Assembly (NCBI GenBank): GCA_017535635.1
Contig: JAFXTU010000059.1
Location: 62,001-126,000 of the forward strand
Source: Oscillospiraceae bacterium
GTDB lineage: Bacteria; Bacillota; Clostridia; Oscillospirales; Oscillospiraceae
Reading direction: 5' to 3'
DNA: 64,000 nt
The number at the start of each line of letters is the position of its first letter. Position 1 is the stretch's first letter. Under the pieces are notes generated by a model. That model was not told where the DNA came from and ran no database searches. It was given only the letters and a program-made list of their open reading frames with translations. A program made the translations under genes and the position numbers. This document shows, piece after piece, positions 54,586-64,000 of the stretch.

Positions 54586-55257
54586 TCAGCCCTCCAGCCT
54601 GTACCCCGCCTTGATGACGGTTTTGATGATCCCGGCCCTGTCCCCCAGCTTTTCCCGGAGGCGCTTGATCTGCGTGTCCACGGCCCTCGCCTCCCCCTCG
54701 TAGTCGTAGCCCCAGCATTTCACCAGCAGCTGCTCCCTGCTCAGCACGATGCCCCGGTTTTTCATCAGGCACTCCAGGAGAGCGAATTCCTTGGGGGTGA
54801 GGCTTACTTCCCGCTTCCCCGCCCAGGCCTGCCGGGTACTCAGGCGCAGGGAAACGCCGCCCGCCTCCAGCAGGTCCCCGGAGCGGAGGCTTCCCCGCCG
54901 GCGGCGGATCAGGGCATCCAGCTTCGCGTAGAGGACGGCCATACTGAAGGGCTTCGTCACGTAGTCGTCGGCCCCCAGCTCGTAGCCGTAGAGCTTATCC
55001 TCCTCGTCGGAGAGGGCCGTGAGGAAGACAATGGGCACGTCGCTTTCCCGCCGGGCGGCCCGGCAGACGGAGAAACCGTCCAGCTCCGGCATCATGATGT
55101 CCAGCAGCAGGGCGTCGTACTCTCCCTCCTCCAGCCTTTCCAGGGCTTCCGCCCCGTTTGCCGCCGGGATCGGCTCATCCCCCTTGTCCCGGAACCAGTC
55201 ACAGAGCACCGCCCGGAGACGGGGCTCATCTTCCACGATGAGGACCTTGTATTCCAT
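54586..55257 (-). CDS. OmpR-family response regulator
   Basis: A 223-residue regulator. The receiver domain (1-115) has the acidic pair in VEDE, phosphorylated Asp in LLLDIMMPELDG and Lys in VTKPFSM. The winged-helix output domain follows (SLTPKEFALLECLMKNRG; RAVDTQIKRLREKLG). ATG 55257 has GGAGGGG five bases upstream; in-frame sequence further upstream runs through the cupin terminator and is rejected. The kinase gene follows at once. Confidence 0.93.
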   Translation of the reverse strand: MEYKVLIVEDEPRLRAVLCDWFRDKGDEPIPAANGAEALERLEEGEYDALLLDIMMPELDGFSVCRAARRESDVPIVFLTALSDEEDKLYGYELGADDYVTKPFSMAVLYAKLDALIRRRRGSLRSGDLLEAGGVSLRLSTRQAWAGKREVSLTPKEFALLECLMKNRGIVLSREQLLVKCWGYDYEGEARAVDTQIKRLREKLGDRAGIIKTVIKAGYRLEG

Positions 55258-55329
55258 CCGCTTCCCCTCCTTTGGGGGCAGTATAACTCCCACATGTGTA
55301 CTCAATGTGTCAGGTTTGAAATTATAGAG

Positions 55330-55363
55330 AAGGCCGCCGCGAGCCGATAACTCGCGGCGGCCT
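55330..55363 (-). terminator. Hairpin terminator after the bicupin gene
   Basis: A 13-14-bp GC-rich stem (55330-55343 with 55351-55363, loop CCGATAA) is followed on the minus strand by CTCTATAATTT. The stem is strong and the T tract moderate. Read-through would continue into the two-component system. Confidence 0.6.
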
Positions 55364-55375
55364 TTGGTCTTCGGG

Positions 55376-56704
55376 TCACTTGGTTTCCGGGATCTGAATG
55401 TTGCCGAAGCACTTGCCGCAGATGTTGCAGCGCTTCGTCTTGTCAAAGCGGCAGAAGCGCACGTTGTCGCCCATGTAGACGTAGGTCTTGTCGCTCTGGA
55501 AGAAGCCGTTGCCACCCTTCCCCGGCTCCGCGGGCCGGGAGACGATGGTGCCCCAGGTACCGGACATGAAGGCCGCCTGGAACATGACGGGCTTGTTCAT
55601 CTTCCGGAACTTGATGGGGCAGTGCCACACGTTGGCGGGGATACGCACCACGGTGGGTTTCGTGATGATCTTGGACTCCATATGCTCCGGGTCGTCCCCG
55701 AAGGTCATCTCGATCTCGGCGTCGAAATCAAAGAAGTCCATAGGATTCGCGCCCATGAAGAAGATGTACTCCTCCGCACCCTGGTGGAAGTGGGTGTCCT
55801 CGGTGTCGTTGGCCCCGGCGAAGATCTGGAAGCCCACGTGGTAGGTGGCGCCCTCCATGTACGTCTCGCCCCGGAAATAGGCCTGGGGAGAGGGGCACCA
55901 GTCGCCCCAGGCGGTCTTTTCCTTGGGAACGGCCAGTACGTTTTTCCGCACCTCCTCGCTGAGGGCGGGCTTGGGAGCCTTGAGCACGGTGGCGTCGGAA
56001 TAGGGTTTACTGGGATTGGTGGGGGTGACCACGCACTTGGTGGAATCCGGGGCCTTCTCCGGGTCGTATGCGCCGGTGTCGGTATAGGAGGTGACCCCGT
56101 CCTCGTTCACGACGGTCCAGGGCACGAAGTGGTAGGGGCGCGGGGGGACCTTGTCGGGATTGGCAAAGCAGGTGCCGCAGTAGGAGCACTTCTTCCCCGG
56201 CTCCAGGACGCAGTCGGCCTCGCACTCGTCGCCGAAGTAGAGGTACTGCTTCTCGCCGGTGTCGTCCCGCTCCACGTACTTCACCAGCCCGGCCCGCCCG
56301 GACTGCATCACCGCCTGGAAAATGAGGGGCTTATCCACCCGCACGAAATCCAGGGGACTGTGCCACCAGCCCTTGGGAAGGTGAATGATGGTGGGCTCGG
56401 TGATGACCACCTTCTCCATCTGGTCCAACTTGGGCCCCATATAGAAGTGGACCTCCGCGTCCCAGCCGGAGAACACGTCGGGCAGCTGGGCGCCCAGGAA
56501 CACCAGGTACTCGTCCTCCCGGTGGAAGTGGGGCTCTGTCTCCAGCCGCACGGGCTTTTTGAAGACCTGGAAGCCTACATTCAGCCCCGCGCCGGGCATA
56601 TCCCGGTCGCCCCGGAAATAGGCCTGGGGGGAGTGGCACCAGTCGCCCCAGTGGGTCTCCTGGGGGACAAACTCGTAAAACAGCTTCTCAAATTTCTCCT
56701 GCAT
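55376..56704 (-). CDS. Duplicated cupin protein with two CxxCGxC clusters
   Basis: A 442-residue protein made of two homologous halves, each opening with WGDWCxSPQAYFRG (about 19-32 and 266-279). Half 1 has cupin metal ligands H59, H61, E65 and H115; half 2 has H305, H307, E311/E312 and H361, so both sites look intact. Each half ends in a Cys cluster: C165, C173, C176, C179 and C418, C426, C429, C432 (CSYCGTCF and CNICGKCF), suited to zinc or an iron-sulfur cluster. No signal peptide. It is divergent from the molybdenum hydroxylase genes with back-to-back promoters. The function is unknown; a metal-dependent step or accessory role for the neighbouring enzyme is inference. Confidence 0.7.
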   Translation of the reverse strand: MQEKFEKLFYEFVPQETHWGDWCHSPQAYFRGDRDMPGAGLNVGFQVFKKPVRLETEPHFHREDEYLVFLGAQLPDVFSGWDAEVHFYMGPKLDQMEKVVITEPTIIHLPKGWWHSPLDFVRVDKPLIFQAVMQSGRAGLVKYVERDDTGEKQYLYFGDECEADCVLEPGKKCSYCGTCFANPDKVPPRPYHFVPWTVVNEDGVTSYTDTGAYDPEKAPDSTKCVVTPTNPSKPYSDATVLKAPKPALSEEVRKNVLAVPKEKTAWGDWCPSPQAYFRGETYMEGATYHVGFQIFAGANDTEDTHFHQGAEEYIFFMGANPMDFFDFDAEIEMTFGDDPEHMESKIITKPTVVRIPANVWHCPIKFRKMNKPVMFQAAFMSGTWGTIVSRPAEPGKGGNGFFQSDKTYVYMGDNVRFCRFDKTKRCNICGKCFGNIQIPETK

Positions 56705-56742
56705 ACAGGTCGCTCCTCTCTGATTGGTTTTCTGCTGCTATC

Positions 56743-56771
56743 AATATACACGTTTTTTGCCCGTATAACAA
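56743..56771 (-). promoter_or_regulatory. Promoter for the bicupin gene
   Basis: TTGTTA (56766-56771) and TATATT (56743-56748) on the minus strand with a 17-bp spacer. Confidence 0.7.
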
Positions 56772-56804
56772 GCACTTCCTGCAAATCCGCCGCCCCATTT
56801 CCGC

Positions 56805-56833
56805 TTGCGGCGGCGGGCGGCGGCTGGTATAAT
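56805..56833 (+). promoter_or_regulatory. Promoter for the molybdenum hydroxylase operon
   Basis: TTGCGG (56805-56810) and a perfect TATAAT (56828-56833), 17-bp spacer, with an extended TGG before the -10. Its -35 lies only 34 bp from the -35 of the divergent bicupin promoter, so one regulator could control both. Confidence 0.75.
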
Positions 56834-56879
56834 CAAGGACAGGAAAAGAACACAGGAAGGAGTGAAGGAGGAAATGGAA

Positions 56880-57536
56880 GTGAAAACGGCGGGCATCTCC
56901 CTGGCCGACGCCTGCGCCCAGGCCCAGGCCAGGATCGAAAAGATGCCCACCCGGCAGAAGACCGTCACCTGTCCCCTCTGCGGTGAGCCCTTTCTCAGCT
57001 TCGGGGACCTGACGGCCCACTATCTCGCCGTCCATCCCGAAGCTGTTGCCCCCGTGGAGGTACGGATGACGGTGAACGGCAGGGACTGCTGCCTCATCAT
57101 CGAGCCGCAGATGACCCTGAAGGAGGTCCTGCAGTTCCACCTGGGCCTCACCGGGGCCAAGCAGATGTGCGACCGGGGCCAGTGCGGGTCCTGCACCGTC
57201 ATCATGGACGGGAAGCCCACCCTGAGCTGCAACGTCCTGGCGGCGGACTGCGGCGGCAAGACGGTGGAGACCGTGGAGGGCATAGCGGTGCAGCCCAAGT
57301 GGCGGCCTCTGATCGACGCTTACTGTAAGTGGGACGCCATGCAGTGCGGCTACTGCACCCCAGGCTTCCTGGTGGCGGCCAAGTGTCTGCTGGACCGGAA
57401 CCCTCACCCCACGGAGGAGGACATCAAGGAGGCCCTCAGCGGCAATATCTGCATCTGCGGCACCTATCCCCGCCACAGCCAGGCCATCCTGGAGGCGGTG
57501 AGCTACATGGTGAAGGGAGGGGAACAGAATGCCTGA
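56880..57536 (+). CDS. [2Fe-2S] subunit of a molybdenum hydroxylase with N-terminal C2H2 zinc-finger signature
   Basis: 218 residues from GTG 56880, chosen because AAGGAGG lies eight bases upstream; ATG 56874 is only two bases from it. Residues 31-52 read C-x2-C-x12-H-x4-H (C31, C34, H47, H52), a classical C2H2 finger, unusual in this family. The CoxS-type part has the plant-ferredoxin cluster C97, C102, C105, C117 and the helical-domain cluster C156, C159, C191, C193, all intact. It passes electrons from the molybdenum centre to FAD. The next gene overlaps by eight bases. Confidence 0.85.
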   Translation: MKTAGISLADACAQAQARIEKMPTRQKTVTCPLCGEPFLSFGDLTAHYLAVHPEAVAPVEVRMTVNGRDCCLIIEPQMTLKEVLQFHLGLTGAKQMCDRGQCGSCTVIMDGKPTLSCNVLAADCGGKTVETVEGIAVQPKWRPLIDAYCKWDAMQCGYCTPGFLVAAKCLLDRNPHPTEEDIKEALSGNICICGTYPRHSQAILEAVSYMVKGGEQNA

Positions 57537-59958
57537 TACCACCGGCGTTAACGGTCTGCGGGAAGAATTCCGGGTGGTGGGAAAGCCAAATCTCCCCGGC
57601 CTCACCTCCTACGCCATGGCCACCGGTGTGGCCAAATACGGCACCGATTACACCCAGCCGGACATGCTCTTCGCCAAGATCCTCCGCTGCCCCCACGCTC
57701 ACGCCAGGGTCAAAAGCATCGACGCGGAGGCGGCCCTTCTTATCCCCGGCGTGTTGGACGTGATCCAGTGGGACGACCCGGTATTTCAGGAGCTGGGAAT
57801 GAACCCCATCGGCGGCTTCCCCAAGCCCAGCTATCTGAATCAGGAGGCCCACTATGAGGGCCAGGAGGTTGGCTGCATCGTGGTGGCGGAGAGTGAGGCC
57901 CTCTGCGAGGAAGCCCTGAAAGCCCTCAAGGTGGAGTGGGAAGTCCTCCCCTTCATCACGGATATCAAAAAGGGAACGGACCCGAACCTGGAGCGCATCC
58001 GGGGGCCGGAGCTCACCCAGGGGGAGGCGGCGGAGTACCGCCCCGAGGCGGGCATGGCCACCTCGGAGGGCTATGTCCTCATGACCAAGCACTACCCCAC
58101 CGACCCGCCTAGGGAGGCCAACGTGAGCTGGAACATCAAGGTGGACGGAAACCCGGAGGAGGGCTGGAAAAAGGCGGACTTCGTGCTGGAATACGACGTG
58201 AACATCCCCACCAACATCTCCACCATCCCCAATCCCCCGGCCAGCGTGGCCTGGTGGGAGGACAGCATGTACAAGGGACCGGGGCAGAAAATCCACATTG
58301 AGGGCGCACCCCATCGGCGGGAGTCCATCATGTCCATGTACCACAAATCCTCCGACGAGGTGGTGCAGGAGGGGCTGTTCCAGGGCGGCAAATACTGCGA
58401 CTGGGGCCTGCGCATGGCCCAGGAGGTGACGCCCCTCCTCTCCAAGCGCTTCGGCGGACGGCCCGTCCGCTGCTGCAACAGCCGGGAGGAGACCTTCGAC
58501 CTGAGCCGCAACGAGCGGCACATGCATATGCGCCTGGGGGTCACCAGGGACGGCCTCATCACCGTGGTGGAGGACAATACCCTGGTGGACAACGGAGCCC
58601 CCGGCTCCAGCACCATGGGCTCCGTCTCCGATCGGGACTGGGGCGGCTACTACACTCTGAAATGCAAGGACATCACCCAGAAATTCCAGGTGGTGGACTC
58701 CAACATCGGCTTCATGCACACCTGCGCCCAGTTCGTGCCCTATAACTGGGACAGCATCACCGTGGCCTTCGACCTCATCGCGGAAAAGCTGAGGCTGGAC
58801 CCGGTGGAGGTGGCGCGGCGCAATCTCCACGGCCCCTCCTCCCAGGACGACCCGGACCCGGTGCCCTCCTTTGAGAAGAGCGTGGAGGTGGGAAAGGAGC
58901 TGATGAACTGGGACTGGCACCCGGCGGGAACGAAGCGGCTGCCCGATGGGAGGCTCCACGGCACTTCCTTCCGCTACGCCATCTGCCCCCGCCACTCCTT
59001 CATGGACTACTTCTGCAAGCTGGAGTACCGGGACGGGGTGGTCCACTTCCCCACCCAGGGCCCCATCGCCGGCTGGTTCAGCACCGAGTGCTTCACCATG
59101 ATCGCGGCGGAGGAGCTGGGCCTCAACTACGAGGACATCAGCGTGGACTACGACTACCGGGAGAAGCACTCCGACCAGGCGGGCGGCTCCGACGGGGTCA
59201 CCGGCCACGGCTGGATCGTGAAGGAATGCGCCAATAAGCTGAAACGAAAGATTCTGGAATCCGCCGCCAGAGAGGCGAATCGCCCGGAGGACGCCTACCG
59301 GGGCGTGTTCTCCTTCCCCATGCCCCCCAGCCCCTTGAAGGGCTGCACTGCCGACGAGCTGGACATCGTGGAGGGTAAGGTCGTCGTGAAGGCCGACCCC
59401 AACCGCTTTGTCCCCTTCAGCCGGGCCACGCGGGAGAACGTCACCGCCGAATTCGGCGGCTACAGCCCCAAGTCCGCCTGGGTCACCGGCTTCGGGCGCA
59501 TTCTGGATACCATGAACACCTCCTGGTGCGAGGTTGCTGTGGACGACGAGACCGGCGAAGTGGAGATCCTCAAGTACATCGTGGTGCCCGACGTGGGCAA
59601 GGTGATCCGCCGCACCTCCCTGGAGAGCCAGATCGACCAGGTGGTTTACTTCTCCCAGGGCTGCCAGCTCCTGGAGGAATTTGTTCAGGACCCGGAGACC
59701 GGGGTGAAGCTCAACGGCAACTTCCTGGACTACCGGGTGCCCACCACCATGGACGTACCGGAGGTGAGCAAGGAGATCCTGGAGCTCAGGAGCGGCAACG
59801 GGGCCTACGGGGCCAGCGGCATCAGCCATAACCTGGCAAACTCCCACCTCATCATCACGGCCATCCACAACGCCACCGGCGTCTGGGTGGACCCGCCCGC
59901 CACGCCGGACCGGGTGCTGAAGGCCCTGGGCAAGTGCGAGATCGGAGGCGAAGCATGA
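57529..59958 (+). CDS. Molybdopterin-binding subunit, divergent xanthine-dehydrogenase family
   Basis: An 809-residue CoxL/XdhA-type subunit. YAMATGVAKYGTDY at the start, GRPVRCCNSREETF, LRLDPVEVARRNL and the C-terminal VPDVGKVI...GCQLLEEFV place it in the family. Canonical active-site signatures are changed: QGGKYCDWG (about 285) stands where GGGFGGK is expected, FMHTCAQFVPYNWDS (about 395) where FRGFGxPQ is expected, and GAYGASGISHN (758-768) where GxKGxGE carries the catalytic Glu. Substrate and even hydroxylase activity are therefore uncertain. Its start overlaps the ferredoxin subunit gene and its stop overlaps the FAD subunit gene (ATGA). Confidence 0.85.
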   Translation: MPDTTGVNGLREEFRVVGKPNLPGLTSYAMATGVAKYGTDYTQPDMLFAKILRCPHAHARVKSIDAEAALLIPGVLDVIQWDDPVFQELGMNPIGGFPKPSYLNQEAHYEGQEVGCIVVAESEALCEEALKALKVEWEVLPFITDIKKGTDPNLERIRGPELTQGEAAEYRPEAGMATSEGYVLMTKHYPTDPPREANVSWNIKVDGNPEEGWKKADFVLEYDVNIPTNISTIPNPPASVAWWEDSMYKGPGQKIHIEGAPHRRESIMSMYHKSSDEVVQEGLFQGGKYCDWGLRMAQEVTPLLSKRFGGRPVRCCNSREETFDLSRNERHMHMRLGVTRDGLITVVEDNTLVDNGAPGSSTMGSVSDRDWGGYYTLKCKDITQKFQVVDSNIGFMHTCAQFVPYNWDSITVAFDLIAEKLRLDPVEVARRNLHGPSSQDDPDPVPSFEKSVEVGKELMNWDWHPAGTKRLPDGRLHGTSFRYAICPRHSFMDYFCKLEYRDGVVHFPTQGPIAGWFSTECFTMIAAEELGLNYEDISVDYDYREKHSDQAGGSDGVTGHGWIVKECANKLKRKILESAAREANRPEDAYRGVFSFPMPPSPLKGCTADELDIVEGKVVVKADPNRFVPFSRATRENVTAEFGGYSPKSAWVTGFGRILDTMNTSWCEVAVDDETGEVEILKYIVVPDVGKVIRRTSLESQIDQVVYFSQGCQLLEEFVQDPETGVKLNGNFLDYRVPTTMDVPEVSKEILELRSGNGAYGASGISHNLANSHLIITAIHNATGVWVDPPATPDRVLKALGKCEIGGEA

Positions 59959-60935
59959 GACCCTTCAATCATCTGAATCCTGCGACCCTGGAAGAGGCCG
60001 CGGAGGCCCTGAGACAGCCCGGCAGCGTGGCTATGGCCGGAGGCGGCGACCTGCTGGGCGCCCTGAAGGACGATATCGCCCGGGAGTACCCGAAGCTCGT
60101 GGTGAACCTCAAGAGCATTCCCGGGCTGGACCGGACCGAAGTCCGGGACGGCGCCCTCTGCATCGGCGCCCTCTGCCTGCTGGGAGACCTGAGCCGAAAT
60201 GAGCTCGTGCTGCAATACGCCCCCATGCTGGCGGAGGCGGCGGGAAAGTGCGCCTCCCCCGCCCTGCGGGAGAACAGCTCCATCGGCGGAAACTTATGTC
60301 AACTTCCCCGCTGCTGGTACTTTCGCAAGCTGAATAACCGCTTCGACTGCGCCCGTAAGGGCGGGGAGCGCTGCTTCGCCCTCTCCGGAGACAACCGCTA
60401 CCATTCCGTCTTCGGCCCCGCCGTTTTTGAGAACTGCGACGGGAAGAAGCGGGCCTGTATCGCCGTGAACCAGGCGGAGCTGGCCCCACCCCTGATGGCC
60501 CTGGGGGCAGAAATCGTGACCACACTGCGGACGCTTCCCGTCGGGGAGTTCTTCGGCGTAAGAGTTATGTCAACCACAGTTCTGGAGCCCGGCGAGCTGC
60601 TGACGGAGATCCGCATCCCCCTGCCGGAAGCCGGAACGAAGATGCGCTACAAGCGCTTCTCCTTCCGGAAGAGCATCGACTTCCCGGTGGTGAACCTGGC
60701 CATCGTGAAAACGCCGGAAAACGAATACCGCGTCGCTTTGGGCGGCGTGGCCCCCATGCCGATAAGAGCGGAGGCGGCGGAGGAACTGCTCCGGGGAAAG
60801 GAGCTCACGCCCGAGCTGGCGGAGGCAGCCGGAAGGGCCGCTGTGCGAGACGCCAAGCCCACGGAGGCGAATGCCTACAAGCTCCAGCTGGTCAAGACGC
60901 TTCTTAAGCGGGAGCTCATCTCCATGATGGATTGA
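59955..60935 (+). CDS. FAD-binding subunit of the molybdenum hydroxylase, with Cys-rich loop
   Basis: A 326-residue CoxM/HcrB-type subunit. The FAD pyrophosphate loop is MAGGGDLLGAL (about 27-37), and NSSIGGNLC is the second FAD motif. An insertion of about 40 residues carries C115, C120, C132 and C140 (LCQLPRCWYFR, RFDCARKGGERC), like the loop that binds an additional [4Fe-4S] cluster in 4-hydroxybenzoyl-CoA reductase beta subunits. It oxidises or reduces the external electron carrier. GGAGG lies six bases before ATG 59955. Confidence 0.9.
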   Translation: MRPFNHLNPATLEEAAEALRQPGSVAMAGGGDLLGALKDDIAREYPKLVVNLKSIPGLDRTEVRDGALCIGALCLLGDLSRNELVLQYAPMLAEAAGKCASPALRENSSIGGNLCQLPRCWYFRKLNNRFDCARKGGERCFALSGDNRYHSVFGPAVFENCDGKKRACIAVNQAELAPPLMALGAEIVTTLRTLPVGEFFGVRVMSTTVLEPGELLTEIRIPLPEAGTKMRYKRFSFRKSIDFPVVNLAIVKTPENEYRVALGGVAPMPIRAEAAEELLRGKELTPELAEAAGRAAVRDAKPTEANAYKLQLVKTLLKRELISMMD

Positions 60936-60952
60936 CGCCAAAGCAACATTTG

Positions 60953-60993
60953 CGGGAGGTCTCCAGGTTTCCCTGGCGGCCTCCCGCTTTTTG
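60953..60993 (+). terminator. Terminator of the molybdenum hydroxylase operon
   Basis: An 8-bp outer stem GCGGGAGG/CCTCCCGC with an inner CCAGG/CCTGG stem is followed by TTTTT. Confidence 0.85.
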
Positions 60994-61005
60994 CTTTCAT
61001 CCACT

Positions 61006-61548
61006 TCAGGATTCCATCTGTTTTCCCAGAAAGCCGGCCACGGTCTGGGCCAGCTTGTCCTCCACCTCTCCCACGGGAGCGGCGGTCCCGCCGCTGAGAA
61101 AGACCACGCAGCCCATCACGTCTCCTTCGGAGATGATGGGAACGGCGATGGCCACGCTGTAATTGTTGTTCCCCTCCGCCACGGGCAGGGCCTTGTCCCC
61201 CTCCTGCTTGTGATAGACCTGCCTCGCCTCCATGACCTCGCTGAGCTCGCCGCTGATTCGTTTCTCGTTCAACTCCCGCCGGGGCGCTCCGCTGACGGAG
61301 ATGATGCTGTCCCGGTCCGTGATCACGGTGATCTGGTTGGTGGTTTTATGCATGGTTTCGCAGAACTGGCCCGCGAAGCTGCTGAGCTCCCCCATGGGAG
61401 AGTATTTTTTGAAAATGACCTCGCCGTCGTTGCTGGTAAAGATCTCCAGGGGATCGCTCTCCCGGATGTGGAGCGTCCTGCGGATCTCCTTGGGGATCAC
61501 GACGCGCCCAAGGTCGTCGATGCGCCGGACGATTCCTGTCGCTTTCAT
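61006..61548 (-). CDS. spoVT: Stage V sporulation protein T
   Basis: A 180-residue regulator. The N-terminal AbrB/SpoVT swapped-hairpin DNA-binding domain is MKATGIVRRIDDLGRVVIPKEIRRTLHI, and a GAF-like domain spans about 55-180. In spore formers it tunes late forespore (sigma-G) genes. AGGAGGA precedes ATG 61548; the longer in-frame start is rejected. I could not identify a convincing sigma-G promoter upstream. Confidence 0.92.
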   Translation of the reverse strand: MKATGIVRRIDDLGRVVIPKEIRRTLHIRESDPLEIFTSNDGEVIFKKYSPMGELSSFAGQFCETMHKTTNQITVITDRDSIISVSGAPRRELNEKRISGELSEVMEARQVYHKQEGDKALPVAEGNNNYSVAIAVPIISEGDVMGCVVFLSGGTAAPVGEVEDKLAQTVAGFLGKQMES

Positions 61549-62918: not shown

Positions 62919-64000
62919 TCATTCTGCGGCCCGCTTCCCCGTCAGGTAGCCGAAGGTGAGGCTCGCCCCGTAGTTCTGGCCGGGGATGCGGAAATTATAA
63001 CAGTTTGCGTACATATCCCCCACCATGCTCCCCGCGCACCAGAGGCCGGGAATGGGCTCGTCGTCAGAGTCGCAGACCTGCATCCGGTGATTCGTCCTGG
63101 GTCCGCCCAGGACGGTGAAAAAGAGCCGGTCGCTAAGGCTGCACCCATAGAAGGGAGCCTCCCGGATCTCCTGGAGGTACTTGGACTTCTTGTGGAAATC
63201 CGCGTCAAACCCGGCGCGGCACAGCTCGTTGTACCTCCGGACGGTCTCCAGCGTCTCCCGGACCGGAAGACCCAGGGCTTCCGCCACGGCCTCCACGGAG
63301 TCCCCCTTCACCAGCCTGCCCTCGGAGACCTGTTCCTCCCAGGTTTTCAGCACCTGCTCCGGCCCGAGGTCCGGCCCCTCCCGCCGCCCGCCGTGGGCGC
63401 GGAAAATGGTCTCCCGGGCGTAATTGCTGCCCCAGACGGCGTAAGCCTGACCTCCCGGCTCCCGCAGGGTGGTGAGGGCGGTGTAAGCCCCGTTCATATC
63501 CTCATTGCAGTACCGCTCTCCCCGGCGGTTGAGCCGCAGGCCACGGTGGGAACCGTAGGGCTGGCTGGTGCCCAGGCGGCTGCCCTGGATCATGACAGCG
63601 CAGGGCCAGGTCCGCTGCCAGGCCGCCCCGGCCCAGAGGGCCATCTGCTGCCCTTCCCCCCGGTAGAGGCCGCGCACGGCGAAGCCCACGTCGTAATTTT
63701 CCCCGTCGGCGGTGAATTCCGGCGCGTACTGGGGACAGTACTTCGCCATCATCTCTTTGTTGGCGGAGAAATCCCCCGTGGCCAGGATCACGCCCTTCCG
63801 GGCCCGCAGCCGCAGATACTCTCCGTTTGCCGCCCGGACGACCACGGCGCAGACCCTGCCGTTCTTCTTCTCCAGGTACTTCGCCGGAGCGGAGTGGAGC
63901 ACTTCGCCCCCGGCGGCCAAAAACGCCTTTTCCAGGGCTTCCAGGGCAAGGCTTATGCCCGTACCCGCACGGGTGATCCCCTTCCCTGCAAAGGCGTGGG
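62919..64000 (-). CDS. FAD-dependent oxidoreductase, flavocytochrome c/fumarate-reductase-like (5' end outside window)
   Basis: The frame is open to the window edge, so the N-terminal FAD-binding Rossmann motif is not visible; about 360 residues are seen. GKGITRAGTGISLALEALEKA at the edge, GVILATGDFSANKEMM, and the C-terminal FAD site YANCYNFRIPGQNYGASLTFGYLTG fit the FAD_binding_2 family (fumarate reductase, urocanate reductase, ketosteroid dehydrogenase relatives). The capping-domain residues that define the substrate do not give a clear answer. It might reduce an enoate or similar acceptor. Confidence 0.85.
   Translation of the reverse strand, partial: HAFAGKGITRAGTGISLALEALEKAFLAAGGEVLHSAPAKYLEKKNGRVCAVVVRAANGEYLRLRARKGVILATGDFSANKEMMAKYCPQYAPEFTADGENYDVGFAVRGLYRGEGQQMALWAGAAWQRTWPCAVMIQGSRLGTSQPYGSHRGLRLNRRGERYCNEDMNGAYTALTTLREPGGQAYAVWGSNYARETIFRAHGGRREGPDLGPEQVLKTWEEQVSEGRLVKGDSVEAVAEALGLPVRETLETVRRYNELCRAGFDADFHKKSKYLQEIREAPFYGCSLSDRLFFTVLGGPRTNHRMQVCDSDDEPIPGLWCAGSMVGDMYANCYNFRIPGQNYGASLTFGYLTGKRAAE

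Follow-up and report, generated by a model that had tools for sequence, protein, structure and literature searches.

In the window, that is, the whole 64,000-nt stretch of the Oscillospiraceae bacterium contig JAFXTU010000059.1 analysed here, we examined a locus where a bicupin gene diverges from three genes encoding a molybdenum enzyme of the xanthine oxidase family. The genome containing the window (G000; G labels the genomes compared and L their loci) is a metagenome-assembled genome (MAG) of 2.0 Mb that is 82 percent complete. The bicupin, of 442 amino acids (aa), is encoded on the minus strand (55376-56704). The three-gene operon on the plus strand (56874-60935) encodes a small iron-sulphur (FeS) subunit (56874-57536), a large molybdopterin-binding (Mo) subunit of 809 aa (57529-59958) and an FAD subunit of 326 aa (59955-60935), with overlaps of 8 bases between the FeS and Mo genes (57529-57536) and of 4 bases between the Mo and FAD genes (59955-59958). 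The open reading frames bear out the divergent arrangement and the overlaps described in a first-pass annotation, which had been made from the sequence alone. The 175-bp gap that it gave between the two units is obtained only when the FeS gene is started at the GTG at 56880; the ATG at 56874 leaves 169 bp.

The same annotation had placed back-to-back promoters in this gap, and both were recovered, each with 9 of 12 consensus positions. The bicupin promoter (56743-56771, minus strand) reads TTGTTA-17-TATATT, and that of the enzyme operon (56805-56833, plus strand) reads TTGCGG-17-TATAAT, with a perfect -10 box carrying a TG extension; their -35 boxes start at 56771 and 56805, 34 bp apart. A generic promoter scan of positions 55250-61100 gave no excess over shuffled sequences (1 site versus 1.1 expected) and missed the plus-strand promoter because its -35 box scores 3/6. 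Since both promoters are kept in the nearest relative, G113 (L070), and L123, in a contig piece without the enzyme, retains that of the bicupin too, they appear to be more than chance matches. The strong terminator expected after the enzyme genes was found as a hairpin following the FAD gene (60952-60987, plus strand; -37.2 kcal/mol, z -7.05). Another hairpin (55330-55364, minus strand; -33.2 kcal/mol, z -5.9) lies between the bicupin gene and the genes of a two-component system that had been suggested to regulate it. Given this intervening terminator, and the absence of two-component genes at that place in G113, where the bicupin gene directly follows an aminotransferase gene, we ruled against a dedicated regulatory role for the two-component system.

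A variant clade of the xanthine oxidase family

The large subunit scored above the gathering cut-offs of PF01315, PF02738 and PF20256 (Ald_Xan_dh_C, MoCoBD_1 and MoCoBD_2) and displays the two-domain molybdopterin-binding architecture with a/b hammerhead of xanthine oxidase family large subunits. Its closest solved structure is 4-hydroxybenzoyl-CoA reductase (PDB 1rm6). We aligned 97 distinct full-length Mo subunits from all loci, using the canonical paralogue of the window genome as outgroup. The position of the family's catalytic Glu was occupied by His in 97/97 sequences (His767 in the window, 59827-59829, plus strand) versus Glu in the same-genome paralogue, and the Glu of HcrA and QorL falls in this column of the profile alignments. 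The window subunit accordingly lacks the active-site Glu of canonical molybdenum hydroxylases. The GGxFG loop was also replaced in all 97 sequences, in this case by GG(K/R)YCDW (window residues 286-292; GGKYCDWG at 58384-58407, plus strand), with Tyr289-Cys290-Asp291-Trp292 invariant. None of the three subunits reached the NCBIfam equivalog cut-offs, either for XdhABC (188.1/780, 123.4/217 and 115.5/310 bits) or for Hcr (171.6/994.55, 142.9/257.8 and 125.7/404.55 bits). In the clade tree, the window sequence belongs to a fully supported group of 15, and 14 of these are accompanied by a short FAD subunit. The unusual Cys motifs and active-site changes that had been read in the proteins of the locus are thus real and conserved in the alignments. 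Judged from sequence, the enzyme clade is a variant within the xanthine oxidase family in which the Glu has been replaced by His and the loop adjacent to molybdenum has been rebuilt. A search of the open PubMed Central literature found no member of the family in which the active-site Glu is altered, and several features of the clade are, to our knowledge, without counterpart among characterised members.

The small subunit carries the Pfam domain Fer2_2 and two [2Fe-2S] domains, whose eight cluster Cys (99, 104, 107 and 119; 158, 161, 193 and 195) were invariant in 22/22 sequences. Its N-terminal part contains a C2H2 zinc finger (56970-57035, plus strand). The ligands Cys33, Cys36, His49 and His54, likewise invariant in 22/22, form the pattern C-x2-C-x12-H-x4-H, and the AlphaFold2 model shows a beta-beta-alpha arrangement in which two short strands precede a helix at residues 43-53. 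Both ligand pattern and fold are those of a C2H2 finger at a Pfam score under the cut-off, zf-C2H2_4 being matched weakly by 20/22 small subunits at E ≤ 1 and by the window member with 17.9 bits against a cut-off of 27. Nothing relevant on a zinc finger in an enzyme of such type was found in the open PubMed Central literature; the finger probably serves in assembly or docking.

The FAD subunit contains FAD_binding_5 (PF00941, 98.1 bits) and CO_deh_flav_C (PF03450, 55.2 bits), as do medium subunits of the xanthine oxidase family. Its Cys120, 132, 140 and 168 were invariant in 14/14 sequences, align with solved medium subunits and correspond in sequence to the four Cys of the 4-hydroxybenzoyl-CoA reductase FAD subunit, so that a [4Fe-4S] cluster is predicted at this site. 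The best solved relatives are PaoB, the medium subunit of PaoABC (5g5g), and the medium subunit of an aldehyde oxidase (5y6q). A CoA-linked substrate had been suggested earlier as one possibility from the HcrB-like character of the FAD subunit. We found no specific support for this suggestion from the FAD subunit alone, because PaoB-type subunits align at the four Cys as well. In 41 of the 97 loci the FAD subunit reaches ~780 aa and holds a GltD/NfnL-like module (Fer4_20, Pyr_redox_2), which interrupts the subunit after residue ~154 and so separates the third invariant Cys from the fourth (e.g. L079:5601-7934); such a fused FAD/glutamate-synthase-type subunit was not found in the open PubMed Central literature.

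The three genes are not always together. No FAD gene lay near the Mo gene in 25/97 loci, and another 17/97 were too close to a contig end for a verdict. Lone Mo subunits lacking nearby FeS or FAD genes occur in G000 itself (L109:3257-5626) and at other loci. Up to 4 Mo subunit copies were counted per genome, and Mo subunits exceeded FeS genes (searched at E ≤ 1e-45) in G007 (2 and 1), G219 (3 and 2) and G000 (2 and 1). This surplus suggests that electron-transfer subunits are shared among catalytic subunits.

The bicupin and its relation to the enzyme

Each half of the bicupin contains a cupin metal motif, HxHx3-4E, and each cupin domain is followed by the four-Cys motif C-x7-C-x2-C-x2-C. The first copy lies at 56168-56212 (minus strand; Cys165, 173, 176 and 179, numbering counted from the alignment) and the second copy at 55409-55453 (minus strand; Cys418, 426, 429 and 432), the latter being invariant in 21/21 aligned bicupins. 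Among 80 distinct cupin domains of the lineage, 57 have the four-Cys tail and 61 the motif HxHx3-5E. In sequence, the tail is similar to the CxxCGxC motifs of cluster or zinc sites. At E ≤ 0.001 the bicupin had no match among Pfam and NCBIfam families, its alignment retrieved a chance match only when searched against PDB sequences, and the open PubMed Central literature held nothing relevant on a cupin of its kind. For its AlphaFold2 model (pLDDT 86.5), Foldseek and VIA-align gave the bicupins OxdC and MncA as top fold matches (2vqa: Z 18.6, rmsd 4.5, 292 aligned; 1j58: Z 17.8, rmsd 4.2, 277 aligned), a comparison that leaves room for other cupin families. The window protein shares with oxalate decarboxylase OxdC and MncA the bicupin fold and a metal motif in each of the two domains; unlike them, it has four-Cys tails and matched no sequence family at the thresholds used, and its identity to them is ~12-14 percent. 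It would be a metal enzyme in its own right, with a pair of cupin sites and a four-Cys tail after each. DPGC, the ring-opening hydrolase of the phloroglucinol pathway, was rejected as its identity, since DPGC belongs to the 'cyclase' family according to passages of PMC10470551. As a side observation, the bicupin gene of G057 (L122:7437-8750) is interrupted by an in-frame stop that may be due to decay or to faulty assembly; the related gene in G139 (L123) has no such interruption.

In G113, all four genes have relatives in the same orientations (94, 85, 87 and 77 percent identity for bicupin, FeS, Mo and FAD subunits, respectively), and a ~2.5-kb gene encoding an 820-aa repeat-rich secreted surface protein (L070:2827-5289) lies between the bicupin and FeS genes. 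Each of the two units there has its own promoter, and since both promoters are kept around the inserted gene, a shared divergent promoter was rejected as a conserved feature. The bicupin orthologue adjoins the enzyme in G000 and G113 only. In the same-genus genomes G178 and G228, bicupin (79 and 78 percent identity) and enzyme are on separate contigs, and in other genomes the bicupin adjoins an Opp-type transporter or unrelated genes. In Sporobacter termitidis (taken to be G219), for instance, the orthologue follows an Opp-type transporter operon accompanied by two further single cupins (L128:5245-13246); similar rows of cupins, Opp-type ABC transporter and bicupin were seen in L135, L138 and L139.

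A scan of named genomes yielded 123 relatives of the enzyme, and counts of named loci refer to the best 80 of these 123. A cupin homologue of any kind was present in the flanks available for 5 of the 80. In the genome set, a cupin lay within 8 kb of 8/52 enzyme loci versus ~1.2 expected from cupin density, a crude expectation in which density comes from matches at E ≤ 1e-20 and detection from an HMM; the eight loci represent ~5-6 independent cases with differing cupins. Cupin paralogues of the window genome (L140:6518-14416 and L141:8977-14765) have as neighbours glycyl radical enzymes and a BaiCD-like flavoenzyme, all of them scoring under every equivalog cut-off, together with an activase and a ferredoxin-like protein.

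At the level of genomes the association was close. Of 250 sampled family genomes, 44 had a bicupin-type match (E ≤ 1e-20) and 28 had the Mo subunit (E ≤ 1e-60), all 28 within the 44; the probability of this overlap by random draw is ~4e-26 if shared ancestry is ignored. In an order sample of 345 genomes, bicupin-type cupin and Mo subunit were both found in the same 2, and a search for the cupin alone in a phylum sample of 249 found it in 2. Strong full-length bicupin matches occurred in 17 genomes, 12 of which have the enzyme and 5 of which gave no enzyme match. The homologues are therefore mostly apart at the level of the locus, the outcome that the first-pass annotation had named as refuting its proposal, and together at the level of the genome. 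Because the genes co-occur in genomes and are rarely adjacent, we conclude that cupins and enzymes share a guild and are sometimes neighbours, and that the window bicupin is not the regular partner of the enzyme.

A proposed reductive role in anaerobic aromatic catabolism

The hosts of the enzyme point to aromatic catabolism. Among the best 80 named loci, 76 are from Bacillota (Oscillospiraceae, Clostridiales, Peptococcaceae, Papillibacter, Sporobacter), 3 from Acidobacteriota and 1 from Deltaproteobacteria. S. termitidis, which has three Mo subunits as well as the bicupin, depends for growth on methoxylated aromatics, which it O-demethylates and whose ring it cleaves, according to passages of PMC4585845. 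Some record titles name rumen or rectum as the host source. Many of the MAGs presumably originate from termites, as we take their isolate codes to mean. Pyrogallol hydroxytransferase-like proteins were found in 7/7 genomes tested versus 0/14 controls. XdhC, a maturation factor for enzymes of the xanthine oxidase type, scored above the cut-off in 5/7 genomes tested, G000 included, and in G007 its gene lies ~2 kb from the enzyme genes.

Within 7 kb of 92 enzyme loci, the recurrent neighbours were short-chain dehydrogenases/reductases (SDRs; 27 loci), ABC ATPases (17), URO-D-type proteins (8), BaiCD-like flavoenzymes (7), cupins (6) and glycyl radical enzymes (6). The SDRs beside the enzyme in L071 (11088-12017) and L170 (5330-6271) have C-alpha-dehydrogenases as best solved relatives, and so does the SDR of L145 (11588-12520), which stands at a cupin locus and not beside the enzyme. 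These C-alpha-dehydrogenases belong to lignin beta-aryl ether catabolism in Sphingobium. The relatives of the L109 SDR are mannitol- and carbonyl-reductase-like rather than C-alpha-dehydrogenases. G000 has three relatives of the L071-type SDR (52-61 percent identity) elsewhere in its genome.

4-Hydroxybenzoyl-CoA reductase (HcrABC, 1rm6) works reductively, and besides it we know of only a few reductive members of the xanthine oxidase family, recently found gut enzymes. The window enzyme is like HcrABC in having three subunits, two [2Fe-2S] clusters and, as predicted, an extra [4Fe-4S] site in the FAD subunit, and in its large subunit, for which HcrABC is the best solved relative; unlike HcrABC, it has His for Glu, a changed Mo loop and a zinc finger in the FeS subunit, and it scores far under the three Hcr cut-offs. 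A second precedent is the urolithin C dehydroxylase Ucdh of Enterocloster bolteae, a three-subunit reductive member of the family that removes a phenolic OH with NADH in gut Clostridia, a likeness that is drawn by description only, from passages of PMC12771579. Given the relation to HcrABC, the precedent of Ucdh and the NAD(P)H-type module of sister operons, a reductive attack on a C-O bond seems the most likely activity. We tentatively propose that the enzyme takes part in the anaerobic catabolism of aromatics by acting reductively at a phenolic or aryl C-O bond and that the bicupin is an independent member of the guild, and we hold this reading at somewhat short of even confidence. Electrons would enter at the FAD/[4Fe-4S] subunit (by way of the built-in NAD(P)H-reading NfnL/GltD-like module where sister operons have one) and would then pass through the two [2Fe-2S] clusters to molybdenum, where a C-O bond, phenolic or aryl, in a compound derived from lignin or polyphenols would be removed or cleaved. 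The FeS and FAD subunits of full operons seem to serve the extra lone catalytic subunits as well, and the bicupin would act in the same aromatic-degrading organisms with no dedicated partnership with the enzyme.

Several points weigh against this proposal. Its evidence comes from sequence, predicted structure, gene distribution and host lineage. The FAD subunit of the window itself has no NAD(P)H module. SDRs occur at 27/92 enzyme loci only, those of the L071 type at ~9, and none is near the window enzyme; the neighbour analysis, moreover, included loci truncated where a contig stops. Because C-alpha-dehydrogenases catalyse oxidations, some of the steps encoded in the gene clusters may be oxidative, and the His in place of Glu could support an oxidative reaction too.

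The last point leads to the strongest alternative: the enzyme would be a molybdenum hydroxylase or aldehyde oxidoreductase of the ordinary oxidative kind, with His767 doing the work of the catalytic Glu. Every cofactor domain is present, oxidation is the rule in the family, and the nearest solved relatives of the FAD subunit, with its four aligned Cys, belong to PaoABC and aldehyde oxidase, which are oxidative enzymes; the large subunit of the window is of a different class from theirs. We consider this alternative unlikely, if worth serious attention, in view of the invariant His and changed Mo loop in 97/97 sequences, the failure to reach any NCBIfam equivalog cut-off (best large-subunit score 188 versus 780 bits), the strictly anaerobic lineage and the NAD(P)H-type input modules of sister operons.

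A bolder version of the reductive proposal also appears unlikely when taken as a whole. It would make the clade a new class of molybdenum reductase (Glu to His, YCDW loop) for reductive aryl C-O cleavage, by phenol dehydroxylation or lignin aryl-ether cleavage, in the oxygen-free degradation of lignin-derived aromatics by bacteria of termite gut, rumen and digester; C-alpha-dehydrogenase-like SDRs would prepare the substrate for reduction by converting its benzylic alcohol to an activated para-acyl phenol, and one electron-input chassis would serve interchangeable catalytic subunits. Nothing on anaerobic aryl-ether cleavage with molybdenum was found in the open PubMed Central literature. If reductive C-O attack were true, a clade without the catalytic Glu, with a zinc finger and with the NAD(P)H module of sister operons, in fermenters of lignin aromatics, would widen the range of reactions in the family and offer a way into the oxygen-free opening of aromatic rings. 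The cultured member S. termitidis DSM 10068 makes the proposal testable.

The first-pass annotation had instead seen in the locus one co-evolved redox pathway. Of that idea, the unusual redox enzyme, the aromatic-degrading lineage and the shared genomes (28/28; the same 2/345) have stood, and the co-evolved locus has not, adjacency being confined to G000 and G113. That bicupin and enzyme form a single dedicated pathway under a shared divergent promoter is consistent with the co-occurrence (28/28 and 2/2) and with cupins of some kind near 8/52 enzyme loci where ~1.2 would be expected by the crude count. We regard it as improbable, however, because even G113 has a gene inserted between the two units, the genes are on separate contigs in G178 and G228, the bicupin elsewhere adjoins an Opp-type transporter (L128) or unrelated genes, and the enzyme is missing from 5/17 genomes with a full-length bicupin.

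Still less probable is a sensory role for the bicupin, with a ligand or metal as the signal and four-Cys tails that bind zinc or an Fe-S cluster for regulation. The tails in 57/80 cupin domains and the lack of a sequence match to any known enzyme family would fit a sensor; the two intact cupin metal motifs, the best structural match to metal-binding MncA and oxalate decarboxylase, the absence of a DNA-binding domain and the clustering of cupins with catabolic enzymes in L140 and L141 argue against one. Finally, the loss of Glu in 97/97 sequences and the catalytic subunits that stand alone, away from any FeS or FAD gene, might suggest a catalytically impaired clade that lost its general base and serves mainly in electron transfer or substrate sensing, a very improbable reading given an active-site neighbourhood that is invariant as a whole and not drifting, the many full operons retained and the expansion to as many as 4 copies per genome.

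Near the enzyme operon, at 62919-63998, the window also encodes a protein with a FAD_binding_2 domain; its relatives include vinyl phenol reductase and 3-ketosteroid dehydrogenases, with scores under all cut-offs.

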